Assembly (NCBI RefSeq): GCF_900105335.1
Contig: NZ_LT629770.1
Coordinates: forward strand, 2,418,001-2,482,000
Direction of reading: 5' to 3'
DNA from: Microbacterium paraoxydans
GTDB lineage: Bacteria > Actinomycetota > Actinomycetes > Actinomycetales > Microbacteriaceae
Length of the DNA: 64,000 nt
The notes beneath the pieces are model-generated. The model saw only the letters and a list, made by a program, of their open reading frames with translations. It ran no database searches and was not told the DNA's origin. Of the stretch, positions 11,739-23,891 are shown piece after piece. The stretch's first letter is position 1. Each line of letters opens with the position of its first letter. Made by a program: the position numbers and the translations under genes.

Positions 11739-12773
11739 TCAGCGCGCGACCCGCGGTGGGGCGGTCGAAGAGCGCACGATGAGCTGCGGGTCGGTGGAGG
11801 GCATCTCGCCGACCGGGTCGTGGCCCTCGATCTGGGTGATGAGCCGTAGCGCGGCGGCGCGGCCCATGGCCTCGAACGGCTGACGGACGGTGGTCAGGGC
11901 GGGGGAGGCGTAGGCGGCGAGGGCGATGTCGTCGACACTCACGACGGAGATGTCCTCCGGCACGCTGCGCCCCGCCTCGTGCAGGGCGCGGATGAGGCCG
12001 AACGCCATCTCGTCGCTGCTGACGAAGACCGCGGTCGCCTCGGGGATCGCGGCGATCGTGCGGCCTGCCCGGTACCCGGACTCCGGGGTCCAGTCCGCCG
12101 GGATCACGGGCGGCGGGACGATGCCGCGCTCGCGGAGCGTCTGCTCCCAGGCCTCGCTGCGCTGCTGCGTCTCCGTCCAGTAGTCGTCGCCGGAGACATG
12201 CCACACGGTCTCGTGGCCGAGGTCGAGGAGATGCTCCACGGCGAGGCGGGCGATCGCGCGCTGGTCGACCGCGAGCGGGGCGTCCTCCTCGAGGGAGGTG
12301 CGCTCACTCCGGGTGGCGGGCGTCCGTTCGGTACGCGCCCGCATCGCCGGCGTGTCCAGGGCGATCGGAACACCGAGGATGATGCCCTCCGCGCCCTGCC
12401 GCTCCAGGCGATCGAAGGCCTCGAGGAACGCGTCGTCCGAGGCGTGGTCGGCCACCGCCGCCGTGGTCACGGTGTAGCCGTTCGCCGCCGCGGCTTGCTG
12501 GATGCCGACGCCGAGCGCGGCGGAGGAGTAGCGATCGGTCGAGACCACGATCACGCCGAGCACACGGGTGCGGCCCGAGGCGAGCGACGCGGCGGCGGCG
12601 TGCACCCGGTAGCCGAGTTCCTCGACCGCGGCGAGAACCCGTCGTGCGGTCTCCGGGCGGACGTTGTCCTGTCCCGACATCACGCGCGAGACGGTCTGGG
12701 TGGAGACGCCGGCGAGGCGGGCGACGTCGACCTGGCTGGGGGCGCGGTCGTCTTTCGGACGGCGAGGGGACAT
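11739..12773 (-). CDS. LacI-family repressor of the O-glycan locus
   Basis: 344 residues. The N-terminal helix-turn-helix is QVDVARLAGVSTQTVSRVMS with the hinge helix AAASLASGRTRVLG. A periplasmic-binding-protein-like sensor domain follows, with GVIVVSTDRYSSAALG and VSVDDIALAAYASPALTTVR. It is divergent from the GH35 gene. It is the only LacI gene beside four copies of one operator (12836, 14721, 14777, 23741), so it is the likely repressor, induced by an imported galactosyl-GalNAc product. The ATG at 12773 is preceded by TACCAT six bases upstream (leaderless), which favours it over an in-frame ATG further upstream. Confidence 0.85.
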   Translation of the reverse strand: MSPRRPKDDRAPSQVDVARLAGVSTQTVSRVMSGQDNVRPETARRVLAAVEELGYRVHAAAASLASGRTRVLGVIVVSTDRYSSAALGVGIQQAAAANGYTVTTAAVADHASDDAFLEAFDRLERQGAEGIILGVPIALDTPAMRARTERTPATRSERTSLEEDAPLAVDQRAIARLAVEHLLDLGHETVWHVSGDDYWTETQQRSEAWEQTLRERGIVPPPVIPADWTPESGYRAGRTIAAIPEATAVFVSSDEMAFGLIRALHEAGRSVPEDISVVSVDDIALAAYASPALTTVRQPFEAMGRAAALRLITQIEGHDPVGEMPSTDPQLIVRSSTAPPRVAR

Positions 12774-12779
12774 GCCCCA

Positions 12780-12785
12780 ATGGTA
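12780..12785 (-). promoter_or_regulatory. -10 element of leaderless lacI-type promoter
   Basis: Minus-strand TACCAT lies six bases before the ATG at 12773. It is about 50 bp from the operator at 12836, so the repressor may also control itself. Confidence 0.45.
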
Positions 12786-12830
12786 GCGATCCATCGGCGG
12801 AAAACCAGGGAGCGCGGACATCGGCGATGC

Positions 12831-12849
12831 GATAATGTGAACGCAAACA
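12831..12849 (+). promoter_or_regulatory. GH35 promoter -10 with overlapping LacI operator
   Basis: The -10 box GATAAT (12831-12836) runs directly into TGTGAACGCAAACA (12836-12849), a copy of the 14-bp near-palindrome TGTNNGCGCNNACA with one changed core base. A repressor bound here would cover the transcription start. The GH35 ATG lies 18 bases downstream. Confidence 0.7.
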
Positions 12850-12866
12850 ATTCAGCTGGGAGTGCA

Positions 12867-14684
12867 ATGTCCGACCTTCTCGCCGCGGCTTCCGACGGCT
12901 TCTCCACCGCCGTCGCCGCGCCGACAGACGCCGCTGCCCCCGGCGCCCCCGCCCTGTCCTGGCGCGACGGGGAGATCCTCCGCGACGGTGCGCCGCACCG
13001 CATCCTGTCGGGCTCGATCCACTATTTCCGCGTGCACCCGGACCAGTGGGAGGACCGCCTGCGCCGGCTCGCCGCGATGGGCGCGAACACGGTCGACACC
13101 TACGTCGCCTGGAACTTCCACGAGCGGGTCGAGGGGGACATCCGTTTCGACGGCTGGCGGGACGTCGAGCGCTTCGTGCGGCTGGCCGGCGAGGTCGGCC
13201 TCGACGTCTTCCTCCGGCCGAGCCCCTATATCTGCGCGGAGTGGTCGAACGGCGGGCTGCCCTTCTGGCTCACCGGCCGGGTCTCGGCCCTGCGCACGAG
13301 CGATCCCGCATTCCTCGCCGCCGTCGACGCCTGGTACGACGCGCTGCTCCCGCGGCTCGTGCCCCTGCAGGCGGCGTACGGCGGGCCGATCGTGGCGATC
13401 CAGGTCGAGAACGAGTACGGATCGTTCGGCAGCGACGCCGCCTACCTCGCCCACCTCCGTGACGGACTCCGGCGACGGGGCATGGTGGAGATGCTGACGA
13501 CGGCGGACGGGATCACCCCGGACATGATCGCGCACGGGAGCGTGCCGGGCGCGATGACGACGTTCACGTTCGGCACCGGGGTGCCGGTGGCGGCCTCGCT
13601 GCGTCGGCACGGGGAGGCGCTCATGTGCAGCGAGCTCTGGGGCGGCTGGTTCGACCACTGGGGGGAGCGGCACCATGTGCGGTCGGCGGACAGCATGGGC
13701 GGGACGATCCGCGACCTCCTCGACGAGGGCGGCTCGGTCAGCCTCTACATGGCGCACGGGGGCACCAACTTCGGCCTGTGGAACGGCGCGAACCACGACC
13801 TCGTGCTGCAGCCCACGGTGACGAGCTACGACTCCGACGCCCCGATCGGCGAGGACGGCACGCTCGGGGAGAAGTTCCATGCGCTTCGCGCGCTCTTCGC
13901 TCCCTTCCACGCGGACGCGCTGCCGCCGGTCCCCGACCAGCCGCGGCGGCAGTCCGCGGCCTCCGCGCCTCTGGAGCCGCGGGCGGGTCTGCTCGACGTG
14001 GTCCGGGCGACCCCTGCGGCGGGCGCGCTCTCGCCCCGTCCACTCACCTTCGAGCAGCTCGGGGCGGAGGACGGTCTCGTGGCCTATGAGGCCGACGTGT
14101 CGTTCCCCGAGGAGGCGACACTGACCATCGACGGCCTGCATGATCGCGCGGTCGTCTTCCTCGACGACCGCCGCCTCGGTGTGCTCGAACGGGACGGCGA
14201 GACGTCTCTCGCTCTGCCCGTGGACGGCGGCTCCGGTCGGCTGACGCTCGTCGTCGAGAGCCTCGGACGCATCAACTACGGGCCGTACACCGGCGAGGGC
14301 AAGGGCATCATGCGCGGGGTGATGATCGGCCGCCGCCTTGTGAACGGCTGGACGCATCGCCTCCTGCCGCAGACGGCACCGGCGGCGGACGCCGCCGGGT
14401 CGGGCGTAGCGGACGGCCTCGCCGTCGCCGGGTTCGATGTCGATGAACCGCTGGACGCGTGGCTCGCCTTCCCCGGTGGCGGCAAGGGCATGGTGTGGCT
14501 GAACGGATTCCTGCTCGGACGTTACTGGAGCGTGGGGCCGCAGGAGACGCTCTACGCCCCCGCGCCGCTGTGGCGCGCCGGGCGCAACGAGATCGTGGTG
14601 CTCGACACCGACGGCCTCGGGGCGACGGTGGAGATCCGGGAGGCGCCGTCCTTCGGGGAGACCGAGGAGTTCATCGGCTCCTGA
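12867..14684 (+). CDS. Family GH35 beta-galactosidase, cytoplasmic
   Basis: A 605-residue retaining beta-galactosidase. The GH35 barrel shows LSGSIHYFRVHPDQWEDRL, GANTVDTYVAWNFHE, FLRPSPYICAEWSNGGLP and the acid/base NEYGSFG (Glu183). The nucleophile is in SELWGGWFDHWG (Glu256). C-terminal beta-sandwich domains contain GRINYGPY and KGMVWLNGFLLGRYW. There is no signal peptide, so it acts on an imported sugar. Some bacterial GH35 enzymes such as pneumococcal BgaC prefer beta-1,3-linked galactose, which would fit Gal-beta-1,3-GalNAc released by the neighbouring GH101, but linkage preference is inferred. The start has GGGAG seven bases upstream. It is under the LacI operator at 12836. Confidence 0.93.
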   Translation: MSDLLAAASDGFSTAVAAPTDAAAPGAPALSWRDGEILRDGAPHRILSGSIHYFRVHPDQWEDRLRRLAAMGANTVDTYVAWNFHERVEGDIRFDGWRDVERFVRLAGEVGLDVFLRPSPYICAEWSNGGLPFWLTGRVSALRTSDPAFLAAVDAWYDALLPRLVPLQAAYGGPIVAIQVENEYGSFGSDAAYLAHLRDGLRRRGMVEMLTTADGITPDMIAHGSVPGAMTTFTFGTGVPVAASLRRHGEALMCSELWGGWFDHWGERHHVRSADSMGGTIRDLLDEGGSVSLYMAHGGTNFGLWNGANHDLVLQPTVTSYDSDAPIGEDGTLGEKFHALRALFAPFHADALPPVPDQPRRQSAASAPLEPRAGLLDVVRATPAAGALSPRPLTFEQLGAEDGLVAYEADVSFPEEATLTIDGLHDRAVVFLDDRRLGVLERDGETSLALPVDGGSGRLTLVVESLGRINYGPYTGEGKGIMRGVMIGRRLVNGWTHRLLPQTAPAADAAGSGVADGLAVAGFDVDEPLDAWLAFPGGGKGMVWLNGFLLGRYWSVGPQETLYAPAPLWRAGRNEIVVLDTDGLGATVEIREAPSFGETEEFIGS

Positions 14685-14720
14685 GCCGCACACGGGCCGC
14701 GGGTGGTGACCTTCGGCCAA

Positions 14721-14734
14721 TGTTTGCGCATACT
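14721..14734 (+). promoter_or_regulatory. LacI operator, upstream copy for GH101
   Basis: TGTTTGCGCATACT is an imperfect copy of the locus operator. It lies upstream of the GH101 -35 box and 56 bp from a second copy at 14777. That is roughly five helical turns, a spacing that would allow looping between two bound repressors. Confidence 0.6.
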
Positions 14735-14747
14735 TCGCGCTCGACGC

Positions 14748-14790
14748 TTGTCTTAAGCCACCGCGTCGCTCTACGGTGATAGCGCAAACA
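14748..14790 (+). promoter_or_regulatory. GH101 promoter with LacI operator at the start site
   Basis: TTGTCT (14748-14753) and TACGGT (14772-14777) are 18 bases apart. The operator TGATAGCGCAAACA (14777-14790) begins at the last base of the -10 box. The leader to the GTG at 14870 is about 85 bases and contains no clear terminator. Confidence 0.6.
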
Positions 14791-14869
14791 TGGGTTTCGA
14801 TCCATGATCCACCTGCGGCGCATCGGGGCGTCCTTTCCTCCGGCCGTCGCACCGTTCGAGAGGCAAGAC

Positions 14870-17800
14870 GTGTCGACATCTTCCCGACCGCCGCGCACCG
14901 CCGTCGCCGTCAGCTCCCTGCTGGCGACGGCCCTCGCGCTCGGCGGAGCGCTCCTCCCCGCGACCGCGGCGCAGGCCGCCGATCTCGTCCCCGTCCCGCA
15001 CGCGGACTACCGACTGCACGCGGTGTCCAGCGAAGCCGATCCGTATCCGGCGCCGCCTTCGCTCGACGGCACGGCTCTCGGTGCCTTCGACGGCGACTAC
15101 GCGACGCAGTGGACGTCGAGGTACTCGGCCAACGCCCCTTTCCCGCACTGGATCTCCCTCGATCTGCAGCGGTCCCTCTCGGTGAAGGCGCTGGACTATT
15201 CGGTCAAGCGCGGGCAGAGCGTCGCGGCGAAGACCGTCGAGGTGTACGTCACGGACGACGCGGACGCCGCGCGCACCTCGCCGGCCGACGGGGGATGGGG
15301 CGCCGCCGCGGCGGCCGCGACGCTGCACGCGCCCACCGCGAACGACGAGAAGCAGCGCATCACTCTGGACACCGCGAAGGACGGCCGGTACGTCGCCCTC
15401 CTCATCATCGATGCGCAGGGCACCACGGGCGGCGGCGCCGGCGAGATCCAGGTGCTCTCCGACGAGGAGCTCCCGCCGATCGTGACCGAGCCGGAGACGC
15501 CGGAGCAGCCGGAGCCCGGGGACACCGTCGAGATCGCCGCGGGCGGCACCACGGCCACCGTCTCCTCCGCGTTCCCGCAGATCCTCGGCTACCGCGTGGG
15601 CGATGAGCGCCTCGGCGGGCAGAAGGGCTCCCCGCGCACCTGGGCGGTCAACGGCACCGCCTATGCGTCGACCACCACCTCCACGGCGACGGCGACCGGC
15701 GTCGACTACGTCTCGACCCTGACCGGCATCGACGTCACGGTGCGCAGCAGCATCCGGGTCGCCGCGAACGGCACGGTCGAGTTCGCTGTCACCGGAGTCG
15801 ACGGCTCCACCGCGGTGAACACCCTGGGGCTCCCCGAGAACGCCTTCCTCTCCGCGACGGCCGCGGACGGCGCCGTCCTCGACCGCACCGTCATCAGCCC
15901 GAACAGCACCACGAACGCCGACGAGCACATCGCGGTGGGCGCGACGACGGCCACCGGCACGAAGGGCGCGGCCTTCGCGTTCCTCGGCCACGGGACCCTC
16001 GCCGGCAGCGTGATCACGAACGCGACGACGCAGGCCTCCGGCGGCACCGCCTCGTGGAACACCCGGCTCACGACGCGGGTGACCGCGGTCGACGGCCGGA
16101 CCGCGGAGATCGGCTCGAACACCTGGCTCATCCATCCGACCACCGCCGTCGACAGCCGGGTGACGACCTACGCCCTGCCGAAGGTCACGGTGCTCCTCAC
16201 CGCCGACCGCAACGGCGACGAGACCGTGGACTGGCAGGACGCCGCGATCCGCTACCGCGAGGTCGATGCCCCGCGCCTCGGTGCCGACCGGGTGGCCGAC
16301 CGCGTGGTCAGCCGCATCCCGTTCAACTTCGCCTCGAGCGCCACGAACTACTTCGACCTCGTGCTCGACAACACCAAGCGCATCGCGAACCAGACCGACG
16401 GCCTCGGGCAGTGGGTGCTCAACAAGGGCTTCGGCAGCGAGGGACACGACTCCGCGAACACCGACTACGGCGGGAACTACAACGAGCGTGCGGGCGGCCT
16501 CGCCGACCTCAACCGCCTCGTCGACGAGGGGGCGAAGCTCAACGCCGACATGAGCGTGCACGTCAACGCCACGGAGATCTACCCGCAGGCGGACGCGTTC
16601 GACGCGGCGATCCTCGACGGCACCCCGCCCTACAAGCCGGGCTGGAACTGGCTCGACCAGTCGTACTACATCAATCAGCAGACCGACCTCGGCACGGGAC
16701 GCGTGCTCGACCGCTTCCAGCAGCTGCGGGACGAGGTGCCCGGGCTCAGCGGCGTCTACATCGACGTGTACTACTCCAACGGCTGGGTGGCCGAGGAGCT
16801 CGCGGACGAGCTGAACGCCATGGACCTCGAGGTCGCGACCGAGTGGGGCGACAAGTTCGTCGACAGCACGGTCTGGTCGCACTGGCCGAACGACCTCGCC
16901 TATGGCGGCAAGGACAACAAGGGCATCAACTCCACCATGGTGCGGTTCATCCAGAACGCGCAGGCGGACGTCTGGAACGACGACGTCCTGCTCGGCCAGC
17001 AGCGTCTCGTCGATGCCGAGGGCTGGGTGGGCAACCGCAACTGGGACGGCTTCATCGGCAACATCTGGTCGCAGAGCCTGCCGACGAAGTTCCTGCAGCA
17101 CTTCGACCTGCAGACGTACGAGGCGGGGGTCGAGGCGACCTTCACCGATGACGTGGCGGTCCGGCTCGACGGCGGCACGCGGGTCGTCACGATGGACGGC
17201 GCGACCGTCCTGCGGGGCGACTCCTACCTGCTGCCGTGGCAGTCGCTGGAATCGAGCGCCGAGTCGGGTTCGCCCGTCGACGCGGACAAGATGTACTTCT
17301 TCACGGCCTCCGGCGGCGAGAAGACGTTCGGTCTCACGGACGGCTTCCGCGGGAACACGACTTTCGACGTGTTCGCGCTCGGCGACCAGGGCCGCGAGAA
17401 GGTGCGCACCGTCACCGCGGTCGACGGGAAGCTGACGCTGTCCGGTGAGAAGGGGACGGCCTACGTCGTCGTGCCCCAGGGCGGGGCGCAGCGGGCGCCG
17501 ATTGAGTATCACGACGCGGGCCTGACCGATCCCGGGTTCAACTCGGGCGCGCTCGACGGGTGGAACCCCCGGGGCGACGTGACCATCGAGCGCACGGACC
17601 TCGGGGCGGCGAAGAACGCCTCGCGGGGCGACAACATCGCGGTGTTCGGCTCGTCCGCCTCCGCGATCTCGCAGACCGTCACCGGCCTCACCCCCGGGGA
17701 GCGCTACGCGTTCTCCGCGCAGGTGCAGATCGATCCGACGGCCACGCGGGACGTGAGCCTCGCGGTCGACACCGGGGGCGGCGTCGTGAGCCGCACCTGG

Positions 17801-20053
17801 AACCTCTCCCCGACGTACAACTACATGCGCGCCGACTCCAAGGCCGGACAGTACTACCAGCGCGGATCGGTGTCGTTCGTCGCCCCGGCCTCCGGCGAGG
17901 TGACCGTCTCGGTCTCGGCGGTCGCCGGCGACGCGACGGTACGGATCGACAACGCCAGGGTGATGGCGGATACGACGGCCCCCGCCGCGTCCGGCACCGT
18001 GTACTCGAACGACTTCGAGGGCAATCAGCCCGGCTGGGGCCCGTTCGTGAAGGGCGACGCCAACGGCATCGACGACCCGCGCACGAGCATCTCGCGGCGG
18101 CACGACCCGTACACGACGAGCGACTGGCGCAACACGGCCAAGCCGTTCGACAGCGGAGCGCTCGCGGGGCTGGCGGTGGACACCACTCTCACCGGCGAGC
18201 ACTCGCTGATGTCCCACTCCGAGAACTCCGGCGTCGTCTACCGGACCGACCCCACGCTGGTGCCGCTGCAGGCCGGGCACACCTATCGCATCGGGTTCGA
18301 CTACCAGGCCGGTGCGAGCGGGGCCTACCGCTGGCTGACCGGCACCGACGCCGTGCTCGGCGGGGAGATCTCCTCGACGACCCTGCGTCGCACCCCCGTC
18401 GTGCAGGCCCTGGAGACCACCGCGTTCCAGGAGGACGTGATCGTGGGGTGCGGCGACTACACATGGGTCGGTCTGGAGCGCGTCGGCGGCCCGGACGTCG
18501 ACTTCGTCCTCGACGACTTCACGGTCACCGACCTCGGTCCGACGGAGGGTGGCACCCCGTGCGCCACGGTCTCCGGCGAGGCCGTGACCCTGAGCCCGGG
18601 GGCGCAGACACCCTTCACCACGACCTTCACCAACAGCGAGGACATCCTGGCGGAGAACGTCGGTGTGCAGCTCGACCTCCCGGAGGGCTACACCGTCGAG
18701 GTCGCAGACGGGTCGTCGAACCTGTTCGCGAAGGTCGCCCCCGGCGAGAGCGTGACGACGGACTGGCTGCTGACGGCACCGGCGTCGGCCGCGGGCTCTC
18801 CGGTGAGCATCGGCATCGCAGCCACCTACCTCGTCGACTGCGACGTGCGGACCGTGCAGACCGCGCAGGAGGCGGCTGTCGCCTCCCGTGCCCGCATCCC
18901 GAACGCGCAGATCACCGCGACCGCGAGCTCCGAGGAGACCGCTGGTGAGGACGGCGAGGCGGCGAACATGCTCGACGGCAACGCCGGGACGTTCTGGCAC
19001 AGCCGCTGGAGCAGCGACGCCCCCGGGTATCCGCACGTGCTCACGTTCGATCTCGGGGCGGCGGAGACGGTCGACGGCATCTCCTATCTGCGGCGCGGCG
19101 CGAACCAGAACGGCCCCATCAAGGGCTTCCAGGTCGCGGTCTCCGCCGACGGGCAGACCTTCACCGACGTCGCGGCGGGTGAGTGGAAGAACGTCGCGGA
19201 GTGGCAGGATGTCGACTTCGACGCGACCACGGCGCGATACGTGCGGGTGACGGCGACCTCGTCGATCTCGGGCACGCCGTTCGCGGCCGTGGCGGAGATG
19301 GCGGTGTACGGCACCACCGTCCCGCAGGCGGGGCACGCCCCGGAGAAGCGGCCCGAGGACGACCTCGGGGCCTGTGCTGCGGAGACCGATCCGGCGTTGA
19401 CGCTCGGCGCGGATTCCGTGCGGGCGGGGGAGACGGTCGAGGCCGTGCTCTCGGGCTTCGCGCCCGACGGCGTCGTCTCGTTCTGGCTCGACGGCGTGCG
19501 GCTCGCGGACGCGACGGTCGATGCGCGCGGCGCGCTGACCACCCGCGTGCTCATCCCCGCGGATGCGACGGTCGGGAAGCACCGCTTCCTCGTCAAGGAC
19601 GCCTCCGGCGCGGAGGTGGCCGGCGCCGCCCTCACAGTCAAGAAGGCGAAGCCTGCGAAGAAAGCCGTCCTCACCCCGTCGGTCGGCACCGCGGCGGCAG
19701 GAGACTCCCTCCGCGTGCAGCTCCGCGGCTTCGACCCCGAGGCGGTCGTGCAGCTCTGGCTCCACTCGGAGCCGGTCCGCGTGGGGGAGGTGACGATCGC
19801 CGCCGACGGCAGCGCGGTCGCGACCGTCCTCATCCCGGCGGGCACGCCCGCGGGTGCCCATGCGCTCGTTGCGACGGACGCCGAGGGCGCCGAGCTGGCC
19901 CGTGCGGATCTCGCGGTCACCGCGGCCGCGACCGCCGCGGGCGGGGCGCTGGCCACGACCGGCGCGGAGGGGATGACCTGGCTGGCGGTGGCTGTCGGGG
20001 CTCTCGCGCTGAGCGCCCTCGGCGCGGGGCTCTGGCGGCGGCGACGCAGCTGA
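14870..20053 (+). CDS. Cell-wall-anchored endo-alpha-N-acetylgalactosaminidase (GH101)
   Basis: 1,727 residues from the GTG at 14870, which has GAGAGG upstream and directly opens a signal peptide (VSSLLATALALGGALLPATA, ending AQA). The order is: an F5/8-type (CBM32-like) domain, residues about 45-190; a beta-sandwich; the GH101 barrel; jelly-roll domains; a second F5/8-type domain, about 1345-1480; two Ig-like repeats; then LATTG (1694-1698), a hydrophobic helix and an Arg tail for LAxTG sortase. Catalytic signatures match GH101: YIDVYY with nucleophile Asp632 and ATEWGD with acid/base Glu658, plus HVNATEIYPQA and GWNWLDQSYYI. The enzyme releases Gal-beta-1,3-GalNAc (core 1) from Ser/Thr of mucin-type glycoproteins. 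Family identity is firm, but the exact glycan range is not shown by sequence. Confidence 0.92.
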   Translation: MSTSSRPPRTAVAVSSLLATALALGGALLPATAAQAADLVPVPHADYRLHAVSSEADPYPAPPSLDGTALGAFDGDYATQWTSRYSANAPFPHWISLDLQRSLSVKALDYSVKRGQSVAAKTVEVYVTDDADAARTSPADGGWGAAAAAATLHAPTANDEKQRITLDTAKDGRYVALLIIDAQGTTGGGAGEIQVLSDEELPPIVTEPETPEQPEPGDTVEIAAGGTTATVSSAFPQILGYRVGDERLGGQKGSPRTWAVNGTAYASTTTSTATATGVDYVSTLTGIDVTVRSSIRVAANGTVEFAVTGVDGSTAVNTLGLPENAFLSATAADGAVLDRTVISPNSTTNADEHIAVGATTATGTKGAAFAFLGHGTLAGSVITNATTQASGGTASWNTRLTTRVTAVDGRTAEIGSNTWLIHPTTAVDSRVTTYALPKVTVLLTADRNGDETVDWQDAAIRYREVDAPRLGADRVADRVVSRIPFNFASSATNYFDLVLDNTKRIANQTDGLGQWVLNKGFGSEGHDSANTDYGGNYNERAGGLADLNRLVDEGAKLNADMSVHVNATEIYPQADAFDAAILDGTPPYKPGWNWLDQSYYINQQTDLGTGRVLDRFQQLRDEVPGLSGVYIDVYYSNGWVAEELADELNAMDLEVATEWGDKFVDSTVWSHWPNDLAYGGKDNKGINSTMVRFIQNAQADVWNDDVLLGQQRLVDAEGWVGNRNWDGFIGNIWSQSLPTKFLQHFDLQTYEAGVEATFTDDVAVRLDGGTRVVTMDGATVLRGDSYLLPWQSLESSAESGSPVDADKMYFFTASGGEKTFGLTDGFRGNTTFDVFALGDQGREKVRTVTAVDGKLTLSGEKGTAYVVVPQGGAQRAPIEYHDAGLTDPGFNSGALDGWNPRGDVTIERTDLGAAKNASRGDNIAVFGSSASAISQTVTGLTPGERYAFSAQVQIDPTATRDVSLAVDTGGGVVSRTWNLSPTYNYMRADSKAGQYYQRGSVSFVAPASGEVTVSVSAVAGDATVRIDNARVMADTTAPAASGTVYSNDFEGNQPGWGPFVKGDANGIDDPRTSISRRHDPYTTSDWRNTAKPFDSGALAGLAVDTTLTGEHSLMSHSENSGVVYRTDPTLVPLQAGHTYRIGFDYQAGASGAYRWLTGTDAVLGGEISSTTLRRTPVVQALETTAFQEDVIVGCGDYTWVGLERVGGPDVDFVLDDFTVTDLGPTEGGTPCATVSGEAVTLSPGAQTPFTTTFTNSEDILAENVGVQLDLPEGYTVEVADGSSNLFAKVAPGESVTTDWLLTAPASAAGSPVSIGIAATYLVDCDVRTVQTAQEAAVASRARIPNAQITATASSEETAGEDGEAANMLDGNAGTFWHSRWSSDAPGYPHVLTFDLGAAETVDGISYLRRGANQNGPIKGFQVAVSADGQTFTDVAAGEWKNVAEWQDVDFDATTARYVRVTATSSISGTPFAAVAEMAVYGTTVPQAGHAPEKRPEDDLGACAAETDPALTLGADSVRAGETVEAVLSGFAPDGVVSFWLDGVRLADATVDARGALTTRVLIPADATVGKHRFLVKDASGAEVAGAALTVKKAKPAKKAVLTPSVGTAAAGDSLRVQLRGFDPEAVVQLWLHSEPVRVGEVTIAADGSAVATVLIPAGTPAGAHALVATDAEGAELARADLAVTAAATAAGGALATTGAEGMTWLAVAVGALALSALGAGLWRRRRS

Positions 20054-20069
20054 GTCCGTCTGCGCACAA

Positions 20070-20097
20070 AGAGGCCCGGGGTTCGCCCCGGGCCTCT
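20070..20097. terminator. Terminator after GH101
   Basis: A perfect 12-bp stem with a TTCG loop starts 17 bases after the GH101 stop. It may also stop leftward transcription from the ABC operon. Confidence 0.85.
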
Positions 20098-20188
20098 TCT
20101 GCACGCGGCGGGGAGTTTGCCGGTTCTCCACGGGTCGCAGTTCCGGGGCGGGAGAGCATGTCCCGGTGCACGAGGGGCGCGCCGGGCG

Positions 20189-20360
20189 GTGACCGTCGTC
20201 GACGCCTCGATCGTCGTCGACCTGGTCTGCACCGGAACGTCGACCGGTGTCCTGGGGTCGTGGCTGGAGGACGAGTTTCTGCTGCCCGCTCCTCACGCAC
20301 GACCGGAGGCTCGCGCGGGCGGCCTCCGGTCTGTGTGCGGTCGAGGTGCCTAGCCCTTGA
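20189..20360 (+). pseudogene. Remnant of a vapC-type PIN-domain toxin gene
   Basis: From the GTG at 20189 the frame encodes VTVVDASIVVDLV, the first strand of VapC/PIN proteins with the catalytic Asp, continuing to LEDEFLLPAPH, where a VapC would read on to its second conserved motif. From 20292, in a different frame, come LTHDRRLARAASGL and CAVEVPSP, the typical VapC end with the last conserved Asp, then TGA at 20358-20360. The central part (about 70 residues in a normal 130-residue VapC) is missing and the ends are out of frame. No vapB antitoxin is visible upstream. The end overlaps the stop of the ABC permease gene. The call rests on pattern recognition of short ends. Confidence 0.6.
20301..20331 (-). 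terminator. Possible terminator of the ABC importer operon
   Basis: A perfect 10-bp stem with an 11-base loop begins 19 bases past the stop of the last permease gene on the minus strand. It lies inside the vapC remnant, so it may have arisen from coding sequence. Confidence 0.45.
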
Positions 20361-21270
20361 CGGCGCCGGCGGCGAGACCGGAGCGCCAGTACTTCTGCAG
20401 CGTGAAGAACAGGGCGATGAGCGGGATCACGCCGAGCAGTGCCCCGAGCATGACGGCGCCCTTGTCGGGGGAGAAGTAGCTCATCATGCCGTAGAGGCCG
20501 AGCGTGACCGGCTTGAGGTCGGGGCTGGAGATCATCATGAGCGGGAGGAGGAAGTTGTTCCACGTGGCCACGAAGATGAACAGGAAGATCGTCACCATCG
20601 CGGGGCCGAGCAGCCGCAGCACGATCGTGAAGAAGATCCGGGCCTCACCGGCGCCGTCGATGCGGGCGGCCTCCAGCAGCTCCGTCGGCACCGAGGACTG
20701 CGCGTAGACCATGCCGAGGAAGACGCCGAACGGCGAGACCGCCGAGGGGATGATGATCGCCCACACCGTGTTCGTGAGGCCGAGCGCCTGGAACTCGATG
20801 TACAGCGGCACCGTGAGCAGGGCGACGGGCAGGAGGAGCCCCGCCATGATGATGCCGACCGCGAGCTTCTTCCCGGGGAAGGCGAACTTGGCGATCGCGT
20901 AGCCGGCCATCACGGCGAACAGCGTGCCGATGACCCCGGCGCTGAGCGAGTAGAACAGGGAGTTGCCGACCCAGCGCCAGAACAGCCCCTGCGTCCAGCC
21001 CATGAGGCTGTCGTAGTTGGCAGCGAGGTTCGGCTCGGCGAACCAGAAGCCGAACGTCGACGTGAGGTCGGTGTTGTTCTTCGTCGAGGCGACCACGAGC
21101 CAGAACACCGGTACGAGGAAGTACAAGGTGGCGACGACGAGGGCGATGATGCCGAACGTGCGCGCGGCGGGGCCGGGGGCGATCGAAGGAGGAGGGGCGT
21201 CCGCCGCCTGCGGCCTGCGGGAGCGCCGCTTCGTCGGCGGAGCCACGGTGACGAGTCGTGTGGTGGTCAT
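20350..21270 (-). CDS. Carbohydrate ABC transporter permease (MalG type)
   Basis: A 306-residue inner-membrane subunit with about six helices. A polar N terminus (MTTTRLVTVAPPTKRRSRRP) precedes the first helix. The EAA loop that docks the ATPase reads EAARIDGAGEARIF, as in the MalG/CUT1 family. GGAAGGG precedes the ATG, which overlaps the stop of the upstream permease (ATGA). Together with the next two genes it would import an oligosaccharide, here probably Gal-beta-1,3-GalNAc. No ATPase gene is linked. CUT1 systems in actinobacteria usually share an MsiK-like ATPase encoded elsewhere. Confidence 0.9.
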   Translation of the reverse strand: MTTTRLVTVAPPTKRRSRRPQAADAPPPSIAPGPAARTFGIIALVVATLYFLVPVFWLVVASTKNNTDLTSTFGFWFAEPNLAANYDSLMGWTQGLFWRWVGNSLFYSLSAGVIGTLFAVMAGYAIAKFAFPGKKLAVGIIMAGLLLPVALLTVPLYIEFQALGLTNTVWAIIIPSAVSPFGVFLGMVYAQSSVPTELLEAARIDGAGEARIFFTIVLRLLGPAMVTIFLFIFVATWNNFLLPLMMISSPDLKPVTLGLYGMMSYFSPDKGAVMLGALLGVIPLIALFFTLQKYWRSGLAAGAVKG

Positions 21271-22241
21271 GCGTCGCCCTTCCGCCGCTGGAGCAGTGCG
21301 TACACGATCGCGAGCACACCCGCGATGCCGGCCATGAGCAGCGAGTACGCCGACGCCGGACCGCTGCCCGACGGCGACAGCTCGCCCATCATCGTGTTGT
21401 AGGTGAGCATCATCGGCGTGAAGTCCTTGCCCATCCAGGAGTTCGCAGCCTCCAGGATGACCGGCTCGTTGAACAGCTGGATCGTGCCGATGATCGACAG
21501 CAGCACGGCCAGCAGCGCGGCACCGCGTACGAGCGGCACTTTGATGCGGGTCGCGATCTGGGATCCCGTCGCGCCGTCCAGGCGGGCGGCCTCGTAGAGG
21601 TCGCGCGGGATGGCCTGCAGGGCGCTCAGGAAGATGAGCATGTTGTAGCCCGTGTACGTCCACGTCGTCATGTTCGCCATCGAGAAGAGGATCGTCTGCG
21701 GCGACATGAGGTCGGTCCCCTCCGGCAGATACGGCAGGAAGGGCGACACCTCGGGCGTGTAGAGGTAGAGCCACATCATCGCCGCGATGATGCCGGGGAC
21801 CGCGTACGGGAGGAAGAAGGCGAGGCGGAACAGCGCGGGGCGGCGCACTATGAACGAGTCCAGCAGCAGGGCCAGGGCGAGGGCCGCGATGATCATCACC
21901 GGGATCTGGAACGCCGCGTAGAGCACGACCCGTCCCATGCCGGCCCAGAAGGCGCCGTCGGTCGCTGCCGCGGCGAAATTGTCGAGGCCGACGAAGGTGT
22001 CGACGAGCTCACCGCCGCCGTACAGGCCGCCGCCGGCGGGTACCTGGGCGAAGAACGACGACCGGACCGACACGATGATCGGGATGAGGAAGACGACGGC
22101 GAACAGCAGCGCGAACGGCGCCATGAACAGCCACCCGGTCAGGCCCTCTCTTCGGATCCGCGATCGACGGGTCGACGGGGCGACGGGACGGCGCGCGGGA
22201 GGGAGCGGCGCCGCTGCCCTCGTCTCGGTCACTGTGGCCAT
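21267..22241 (-). CDS. Carbohydrate ABC transporter permease (MalF type)
   Basis: A 324-residue partner of the preceding permease. A basic N terminus is followed by WLFMAPFALLFAVVFLIPII, a periplasmic loop, then the usual core helices and the EAA loop EAARLDGATGSQIA. It lies between the binding-protein gene, from which it is separated by 89 bases holding a strong hairpin, and the second permease with which it overlaps by four bases. Confidence 0.9.
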   Translation of the reverse strand: MATVTETRAAAPLPPARRPVAPSTRRSRIRREGLTGWLFMAPFALLFAVVFLIPIIVSVRSSFFAQVPAGGGLYGGGELVDTFVGLDNFAAAATDGAFWAGMGRVVLYAAFQIPVMIIAALALALLLDSFIVRRPALFRLAFFLPYAVPGIIAAMMWLYLYTPEVSPFLPYLPEGTDLMSPQTILFSMANMTTWTYTGYNMLIFLSALQAIPRDLYEAARLDGATGSQIATRIKVPLVRGAALLAVLLSIIGTIQLFNEPVILEAANSWMGKDFTPMMLTYNTMMGELSPSGSGPASAYSLLMAGIAGVLAIVYALLQRRKGDA

Positions 22242-22262
22242 GATGTGCCTCTCGCTCTCACG

Positions 22263-22304
22263 ACGACGGCGGAGTGCACGATCGCCCGTGCACTCCGCCG
22301 TCGT
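22263..22304 (-). terminator. Intercistronic hairpin (attenuator) between binding protein and permeases
   Basis: A perfect 18-bp stem with a six-base loop lies between the solute-binding protein stop and the first permease start. Such hairpins usually stabilise or partially terminate the mRNA so that binding protein is made in excess over permeases. Confidence 0.75.
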
Positions 22305-22330
22305 TCATCCGATGATGCCGTCCGGTCCCG

Positions 22331-23644
22331 TCATTCCGCGACCGGAAGGCCGAGGTCCTTCAGCGACGCGACGGCGGTGTCCTGCGCCGTCGTGAAGATG
22401 TCGGCGACAGTGGCGGTGCCGGCGGCGGCCGCGGCGGCCGTCTCGTTCATGTTCGCCAGCGTCGAGAAGCCGGGGGCGTAGGGGAAGTCGGGGTTGAGGT
22501 TCTCGGTGGCGGTGCCGAGCTCGGCGAGCACATCCTGACCGCCGAACTGACGCAGCATCTTCTCAGGCGTCTCCACCTCGCCCTTCGCGGCGACGACGAG
22601 GCCCTGGGAGGCGAGGTCGTCGACCTGCGTGTTGAACCAGTCGTTGAACTCCATGGCGGCCTCGGGGTTCTCGCAGCCCTTCATGACCGAGACGCCGGAG
22701 CCGCCGTCGGGGCCGGTCATCGCCCCGGCGCCGAAGTCGGGGAGCTGGGCGACGCGCCACTGCCCCTCGGCCGGGGTGCCGTCCAGGGAGTCGAGGAGGA
22801 ATCCGGCCTCCCACGCCGCTCCGACGTGGCCGATGAGGCTGCCGTTGTTCAGCGCCGCCGTGAAGCCCTCACCCCAACGCTCGGTCGCGAGCGTCTGCTT
22901 GCCGTCGAGCAGGCCCTGCCAGAAGGCGGCGACCCGCTCGGAGCCCGCACCCTCGGCGTCCACCTTCCACTCCTCGCCCTCCGTGGAGAACCAGGTGTCT
23001 CCGGCGGCGGCAGCCTGTCCGGAGAGCCAGTTCTGCGCCTCGTCCGGGGTGAAGGCGGTGACGAACTTGCCGGCGGCGGCGGCCGTGGCGGAGGCGGCGG
23101 TCAGGTCGTCGAGCGTCGCCGGGGCGTCGAGGCCGAGCGCCTCGAACTCCGCGGTGTTGTAGAAGTAGACGAGGGGTCCGGTGTCCTGCGGGAGGCCCAC
23201 GATGGCGTCGCCGACCCGCATGCCGCTGAACGCTCCGGCCGAGTAGTGGTCCTCGTACTTCTCGGCCTCCGCGGCGACGTCCTCCAGCAGCCCCTTCACG
23301 TAGAGCTGGGGCACCTCGGAGTATCCGGTCTGCGCGAGGCAGGAACCGTTCCCGGCCTTGATGTCGGTCTCGAGCTTGAGGATCATGTCGCTGGCCTTGC
23401 CGTCGAACTTCGTGGCCTTGACCTGGATGTCGGGATGCTCCTCGTTCCAGCGGTCGACGATCTCCGCGACCGTGGTCATGCCCTCGCCGTCGGGGAGGCG
23501 GTGCATGTACTCGATGGTGACGGGCTCACCGCCGGCGTCGCCGCCCCCGGAGGCGGCCGGGGCGCAGGCCGCGAGTCCGAACGCCGACACCGCGCCGAGG
23601 GCGACGACCGCGGCGACGCGGGGGGTGCGTGAGGTGGGTGCCAT
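22331..23644 (-). CDS. ABC sugar-binding lipoprotein (family 1), O-glycan locus
   Basis: A 437-residue family 1 extracellular solute-binding protein. The signal peptide ends in the lipobox GLAAC (Cys27), so it is a lipoprotein on the outer face of the membrane. The mature part opens EPVTIEYMHRLPDGEGMTTV and has the family-typical NTAEFEALGLDAPATLDDL segment. It would capture the disaccharide released by GH101 and hand it to the two permeases encoded downstream. Its promoter carries an operator identical in type to those of GH35 and GH101. The substrate is inferred from this context. Confidence 0.9.
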   Translation of the reverse strand: MAPTSRTPRVAAVVALGAVSAFGLAACAPAASGGGDAGGEPVTIEYMHRLPDGEGMTTVAEIVDRWNEEHPDIQVKATKFDGKASDMILKLETDIKAGNGSCLAQTGYSEVPQLYVKGLLEDVAAEAEKYEDHYSAGAFSGMRVGDAIVGLPQDTGPLVYFYNTAEFEALGLDAPATLDDLTAASATAAAAGKFVTAFTPDEAQNWLSGQAAAAGDTWFSTEGEEWKVDAEGAGSERVAAFWQGLLDGKQTLATERWGEGFTAALNNGSLIGHVGAAWEAGFLLDSLDGTPAEGQWRVAQLPDFGAGAMTGPDGGSGVSVMKGCENPEAAMEFNDWFNTQVDDLASQGLVVAAKGEVETPEKMLRQFGGQDVLAELGTATENLNPDFPYAPGFSTLANMNETAAAAAAGTATVADIFTTAQDTAVASLKDLGLPVAE

Positions 23645-23726
23645 GCTGTTCTCCTCTTTGAGGTCATGTTCCTGCGGATCGCCCGAAGCGGGGACGCGGC
23701 GAGGGTGCGCCGTCGATCACATGCAC

Positions 23727-23755
23727 ATCAAATCAGAAAATGTTTGCGCTCACAA
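23727..23755 (-). promoter_or_regulatory. ABC importer promoter with LacI operator
   Basis: On the minus strand TTGTGA (23750-23755), a 17-base spacer, and TTTGAT (23727-23732). The operator TGTGAGCGCAAACA (23741-23754) covers the -35 box and spacer. It is the best-matched palindrome of the four copies. A leader of about 75 bases follows before the ATG at 23644. Confidence 0.7.
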
Positions 23756-23891
23756 GACGTGGATCAGCGGTATGGCGACGCACTCGGCTCGCGTCGAGGG
23801 AGCGCTGACATGCCGGAGGCATCGGGTTCCGGACGGTAGGCGTGATCACGGCAGCGCGCGACGCCGCCCGCCCGCAGCCGCCCGGGAACGA

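Follow-up and report, generated by a model that had tools for sequence, protein, structure and literature searches.

The dedicated use of core 1 O-glycans, that is, of the disaccharide Gal-beta-1,3-N-acetylgalactosamine (GalNAc) or galacto-N-biose, is best known from gut bifidobacteria, in which the galacto-N-biose/lacto-N-biose (GNB/LNB) pathway combines a secreted GH101 endo-alpha-N-acetylgalactosaminidase, an ATP-binding cassette (ABC) importer and the GH112 phosphorylase. Other described relatives are the gnb cluster of Lactobacillus casei, with a phosphotransferase system (PTS) importer and the intracellular hydrolase GnbG (PMC5583593), and the POGases, GH101 enzymes of Actinomycetota that accept a broad range of O-glycans and have several carbohydrate-binding-type domains (PMC11861894). 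We analyzed a gene cluster in a 64,000-nucleotide stretch of the Microbacterium paraoxydans genome (contig NZ_LT629770.1, positions 2,418,001 to 2,482,000; hereafter the window, with positions counted from its first nucleotide) that very probably constitutes a LacI-controlled regulon for galacto-N-biose.

In the proposed mechanism, a wall-attached GH101 would free galacto-N-biose from the Ser/Thr-linked O-glycans of mucin-like proteins, import would proceed through a GL-BP-type lipoprotein together with two CUT1 permeases and a shared ATPase encoded elsewhere, and a cytoplasmic GH35 would split it into galactose and GalNAc. The LacI protein would repress three transcription units via one operator, to be released presumably by the disaccharide or a product. 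Homology and comparisons across genomes lend good support to the scheme of release, uptake, and intracellular hydrolysis under one LacI repressor. Gene content, homology, conserved catalytic residues, the operators with their conservation, and co-occurrence are shown directly; the enzyme specificities, repression, inducer, ATPase partner, and anchoring are inferred. The cluster combines known parts in a new way and does not represent a novel type of system. It spans positions 11739-23760, with lacI on the minus strand, GH35 and GH101 on the plus strand, and a convergent importer operon on the minus strand, transcribed in the order binding protein, permease A, permease B:

11739..12773, minus strand, LacI-family repressor gene (PF00356 and Peripla_BP_3 matches), with an adjoining operator
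12836..12849, minus strand, operator in the divergent lacI/GH35 region, TGTTTGCGTTCACA
12867..14684, plus strand, GH35 beta-galactosidase gene, 605 amino acids (PF01301, 344 bits)
14721..14734, plus strand, operator 1 upstream of GH101, TGTTTGCGCATACT
14777..14790, minus strand, operator 2 upstream of GH101, TGTTTGCGCTATCA
14804..20053, plus strand, GH101 endo-alpha-N-acetylgalactosaminidase gene, 1749 amino acids (PF12905, 355.6 bits against a cut-off of 25)
20350..21270, minus strand, CUT1 permease B gene (PF00528), start codon ATG
21267..22241, minus strand, CUT1 permease A gene (PF00528)
22331..23644, minus strand, GL-BP-like solute-binding lipoprotein gene (PF01547; matches to PDB 7vfr, 7vfq, and 2z8d)
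23741..23754, plus strand, operator upstream of the importer operon (binding protein), TGTTTGCGCTCACA

The four components that the first-pass annotation had reported, LacI, GH35, GH101, and importer, are all encoded where it placed them and are backed by Pfam and PDB sequence searches. Its CUT1 importer holds for the binding protein and the two permeases and requires correction in one respect: the importer operon contains no ATPase gene. Given that an ATPase encoded elsewhere in the genome exceeds the UgpC cut-off (470 versus 432 bits), the importer probably relies on a shared ATPase. In relatives, the lacI copies located beside GH101 genes of the window type are 89-100% identical.

The cluster resembles the bifidobacterial GNB/LNB pathway in the homologous binding protein of the ABC importer and in a secreted GH101 whose catalytic and stacking residues are shared, but differs in including a LacI repressor with its own operator and in pairing the GL-BP-type importer with a hydrolase in place of the GH112 phosphorylase. 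In family f4 of the host's order, which we take to be Bifidobacteriaceae, GH112 was found in 9 of the 10 genomes tested, with the binding-protein homologue 2.1-2.3 kb away in 9 of these 9 and a GH101 catalytic domain within 10 kb in 6 of the 9. None of the 43 importer-bearing Microbacterium genomes yielded GH112 (the 9 positive f4 genomes out of 10 serving as the control), and neither did the window's own genome (0 of 1), in a search whose control stayed silent; the disaccharide would thus be hydrolyzed by GH35 rather than phosphorolyzed. The gnb cluster of L. casei is unlike the window cluster in using PTS instead of ABC import and in that the accessible part of its description ties no GH101 to gnb; furthermore, its PTS is associated with aga genes (PMC5583593), whereas AgaS was not found in the Microbacterium genome. 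Two Streptomyces loci (L015 and L017) contain lacI, GH35, and GH101 in the identical order and on the same strands, with 51%, 53-54%, and 50% identity to the window proteins, respectively, but differ in that a search of the flanks fetched with them gave no importer at E 1e-20 and the two gaps examined contained no operator site better than two mismatches.

The general LacI consensus, TGNNANCGNTNNCA, has no match in the window, so that the operator pattern was read from the sites themselves. This 14-mer, TGTTTGCGCNNACA, is present with at most one mismatch at five sites of the whole genome (3.55 Mb), four of which belong to the cluster and are distributed over three promoter regions. The fifth site (C1:1038371-1038384, or L152:8371; TGTATGCGCTTACA) is flanked by another LacI gene and by the operon of an oligopeptide-type importer (SBP_bac_5) and was excluded from the regulon. 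Because the pattern derives from the window sites, the count across genomes is the real control. We fetched 59 loci from Microbacterium genomes encoding GH101, the binding protein, or both, and searched the 350 nucleotides before the first aligned residue, allowing one mismatch; GH35 and binding-protein hits below 60% identity were left out (two and one, respectively), no identity limit was applied to GH101, and one binding-protein locus was dropped because its upstream stretch was missing. All 47 GH35 genes were preceded by the operator, as were 39 of the 41 binding-protein genes and 39 of the 40 GH101 genes; the reversed pattern, under the same rule, preceded none of the 47, 41, and 40. An earlier count anchored on extrapolated start codons (GH35, 36 of 49; binding protein, 40 of 42; GH101, 29 of 40) missed sites where the N-terminus was unaligned and was replaced. 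The only GH101 gene without the operator, in L086, encodes a very divergent protein. When the sequences were thinned so that any two shared less than 80% identity across 94 nucleotides (24, 27, and 31 sequences for GH35, binding protein, and GH101), the operator columns carry 1.86, 1.94, and 1.57 bits each, compared to 0.40, 0.49, and 0.23 bits in the flanks; the operator values are partly built in, given that the sequences were selected for having the site, whereas the flank values are unaffected. The sharing of one operator by all three promoters, already noticed at first reading, extends to four sites conserved across the Microbacterium relatives.

Additional operator matches were observed outside this set. 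In genome G102, a second perfect operator (L065:15613) lies about 1 kb past the importer promoter and possibly marks a further regulon gene. In a second locus of M. algeriense (L019:9826), a perfect match, TGTTTGCGCTGACA, is located between a lacI-like gene (31% identity) and a gene whose product is similar to parts of GH101 but gave no match to the catalytic region.

The sugar specificity of the regulon was assessed first for the hydrolase and the binding protein. The GH35 protein, with its 344-bit domain match, has no signal peptide visible by eye, in line with the cytoplasmic location originally assigned to it, and contains the aligned glutamates E183 and E256, to which we ascribe, presumably correctly, catalytic roles by homology. 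Its closest solved chain is 4mad (490 bits), which we take to be the beta-1,3-specific BgaC of Bacillus circulans, ahead of 3thc (399) and 4e8c (372), presumably the human and pneumococcal GH35 enzymes. The binding protein, with a lipobox LAAC identified by eye, matches PDB chains 7vfr, 7vfq, and 2z8d with E values from 9e-134 to 4.4e-132 (2z8d, 4.4e-132; 7vfr and 7vfq, which carry generic names, score slightly higher), and the next chains, 6h0h and 6q5g, follow at E of about 1e-25 (6h0h, 9.6e-26); judged by these matches, it is a close relative of GL-BP. All 42 Microbacterium homologues of the binding protein share an HRL motif (HRLPD in 40, HRLDN in 2), in which the Arg, aligned with 2z8d, probably corresponds to Arg49 of GL-BP; according to a review, the preference for the second sugar correlates with this residue, which is replaced by Trp in a beta-1,6-galactobiose-binding protein (PMC8106489). 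The GH35 family is broad, and none of the six cluster proteins was named above an NCBIfam curated cut-off, so that one could imagine a cluster dedicated to another beta-galactoside, with a coincidental resemblance to the core 1 pathway. We consider this highly improbable: the binding protein, GH35, and GH101 each give a separate specificity signal, these signals are in agreement, and the three are linked by one operator across many genomes.

GH101 was detected in 46 of the 366 Microbacterium genomes (in G074, as a weak partial match only) and the binding protein, at E 1e-60, in 43; both were found in 30 genomes (Fisher p 2e-22, uncorrected for relatedness), that is, the binding protein is encoded in 30 of the 46 genomes with GH101 compared to 13 of the 320 without it. 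Among 396 genomes of the host's order, 46 from 22 of 109 genera encode GH101 (including weak partial matches in G512, G526, G572, and G606), 31 the importer, and 19 both (p 2e-12; the figures combine two draws, taken as the same genomes); with f4 excluded, GH101 is encoded in 36 genomes, the importer in 20, and both in 10. The 46 of 396 genomes are fewer than expected from the statement that most Actinomycetota species have such an enzyme (PMC11861894). GL-BP-like proteins were named from Agromyces, Leucobacter, Leifsonia, and others among the best 120 of 675 (top 8000 candidates scored). The view that such systems are not known from Microbacteriaceae therefore fits the literature searched but not the genomes, and growth on host or animal glycoproteins, which had been suggested from the locus, does not follow from it, given how widespread GH101 and GL-BP-like proteins are.

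The full window set was found together in 22 of the 59 fetched loci; 14 contain lacI, GH35, and the importer with GH101 not alongside; in 7, lacI and GH35 accompany a different kind of GH101 and the importer is not close by; 1 has all components, its GH101 again being of a different kind; and 15 hold partial sets, some through the ends of contigs or fetched stretches. Among the 14 loci with GH101 not alongside, 4 belong to genomes that encode it elsewhere (G041, G042, G253, and G328) and 10 to genomes without any GH101. The 14 loci would fit an imported sugar that comes from sources other than GH101 release, lacto-N-biose among them, a reading that we regard as possible if somewhat unlikely: all five components occur together in the 22 loci, the operator is also present upstream of GH101, and the co-occurrence of GH101 with the importer is far above chance in both the genus and the order. 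GL-BP binds lacto-N-biose as well but prefers galacto-N-biose 8.5-fold (PMC12345172).

Several points weigh against a regulon dedicated to galacto-N-biose. No GH101 was found in 13 of the 43 importer-bearing Microbacterium genomes, so that the imported sugar may have other sources, lacto-N-biose included, and the affinity of GL-BP for that disaccharide points the same way. The f4 homologues, linked to GH112, are only 47-55% identical to the window binding protein. The operator pattern came from the window itself, the genomes compared belong to one genus and are non-independent, and the two binding-protein loci without the operator (2 of 41; L103 and L110) lack a lacI hit as well. Finally, AgaS, the signature of GalNAc catabolism (PMC5583593), was not found in the genome (best score 30 bits against a cut-off of 529; the model, TIGR02815, matched 7 of 14 controls, above the cut-off in 1), and the cluster itself includes no GalNAc breakdown gene beyond GH35; half of the sugar may thus go unused or be processed by another route. 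The "complete route" originally proposed is well supported for release, uptake, and hydrolysis, by homology and the operators; because AgaS was not found, its completeness is unproven.

A NagA-like gene elsewhere in the genome (G000:C1:2914332-2915441, L153) scores 225.1 against a cut-off of 225.65 and adjoins a GH20 gene; the two possibly form a salvage pair for N-acetylglucosamine or GalNAc.

The GH101 protein starts with a secretion signal (identified by eye) and has the following organization, in residue numbers:

247-477, mutarotase-like domain
478-751, catalytic domain
758-865, GH101 C domain, followed by domain 5 and a GalBD-like domain
1264-1341, NPCBM-associated domain
two stretches of F5/8 domains, best 1372-1499
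1716, LATTG anchor motif, followed by a hydrophobic tail

The signal, the LAxTG-type C-terminus, and a single sortase gene in the genome (PF04203) are the features of a sortase-anchored surface protein, and GH101 is probably attached to the wall. Residues D549, D654, and E680 align with the catalytic positions of SpGH101, the numbers of which we presume for this assignment, and are kept in all rows of the multi-row alignment; the initial description of a wall-anchored GH101 with both catalytic residues is borne out by the alignment and the LATTG motif. The closest solved relatives by sequence alignment are 3ecq and 2zxq, which we take, in line with PMC8106489, to be SpGH101 and EngBF. The DDE triad and an EGHD motif are named for GH101 in PMC11861894, and the catalytic triad and the tryptophans of the active-site lid in PMC11861894 and PMC8106489; the lid tryptophans, W614 and W616, are present within motif 1, GWNWLDQ.

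The window enzyme would release the core 1 disaccharide. Like the POGases, it is an Actinomycetota GH101 with several carbohydrate-binding-type domains, and it could instead act on different or wider O-glycans, such as sialylated core 1. By a hand count on the alignment (offset 36), positions D1254, E1253, K1156, and Q868 of SpGH101, the roles of which are described in PMC12550630, are occupied by D1091, D1090, an Arg, and V742 in the window enzyme. With Val in place of Q868, the enzyme shares a small residue there with the POGases (PMC11861894), which speaks for the wider range, but D1090 retains the acidic charge of E1253, the loss of which favors sialylated substrates, and D1254 is crucial for T-antigen recognition (PMC12550630). 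Motif 1 reads as in 3ecq and 2zxq and is not the AWGWMNQ of POGases. Motif 2, WPNDLAY, matches the POGase WANEEAY at 4 of 7 positions and the f4 form WAADLTY also at 4 of 7, and decides nothing; both motifs of the POGase subgroup are absent. A genome search for BNR_2 sialidases (PF13088) gave none (the family matched 5 of 14 controls; other sialidase families were not searched), a result that counts in favor of the wider range. All considered, a POGase-like range seems quite unlikely, although the enzyme may, given the small residue at the Q868 position, have some tolerance of sialylated core 1.

Two other GH101 loci deserve mention. In G016 (L061, 5612-10809), the gene was aligned in two tblastn pieces with a shorter frame of 1207 amino acids and may be interrupted. 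In G211 (L086), lacI and GH35 accompany the very divergent GH101, which lacks the tryptophan motif, and a 32% identical binding protein with its own operator-like site.

GH101 regions were obtained for 75 rows, two loci yielding no region, and a phylogenetic tree was built from the 69 that remained once six duplicates or partial sequences had been removed; genome G158 is included twice, and the placement of long branches, L086 among them, is uncertain. Three groups occupy supported separate places: the window-type GH101 (22 rows, one genome twice), the GH101 of G144, placed together with sequences from Streptomyces and from two further families, and a group of 11 rows near another Microbacteriaceae genus. 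The first two are preceded by the operator, and the 11-row group by a close form, TGTTTNCGCNNACA, which probably is bound by the same LacI. The form TGTTTNCGC stands before the GH101 lineages other than that of the window. At least three GH101 lineages are thus found behind the operator or its close form. In our reading, GH101 genes were recruited more than once by a single regulator, although gene replacement by transfer fits as well. The core unit looks like the importer-GH35-LacI module, with GH101 as an exchangeable addition. If recruitment was indeed repeated, this is a clean case of one regulator gathering distantly related genes for the same job.

No description of the cluster was found in the open literature searched for Microbacterium with galacto-N-biose or GH101; for GH101, the genus appears once in the accessible texts, within a list. 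The regulon would extend dedicated core 1 O-glycan use to environmental and nematode-associated Actinomycetota, and it provides a testable operator with a predicted sugar, enzyme, and regulon. Window-type GH101 was found in 14 named Microbacterium loci, four of which (MYb45, MYb54, MYb62, and MYb72) come from Caenorhabditis elegans microbiota isolates, among 11 Microbacteriaceae isolates (PMC6908608); the link is no more than suggestive. Tentatively, and with more doubt than belief, one may picture a modular core 1 switchboard, in which the importer-GH35-LacI module scavenges Gal-beta-1,3-N-acetylhexosamine sugars and at least three GH101 lineages were plugged in behind an identical or almost identical operator as niches changed. 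Given the BNR_2 result, the window form could be directed at unsialylated core 1 O-glycans of invertebrates, for example nematodes, the source of several carriers.

Between GH101 and permease B, the window contains a remnant of a VapC-like (PIN) gene (20190-20360). At the equivalent place in the relative L076, a longer VapC-like frame is preceded by a VapB-like frame; these genes are named by resemblance.

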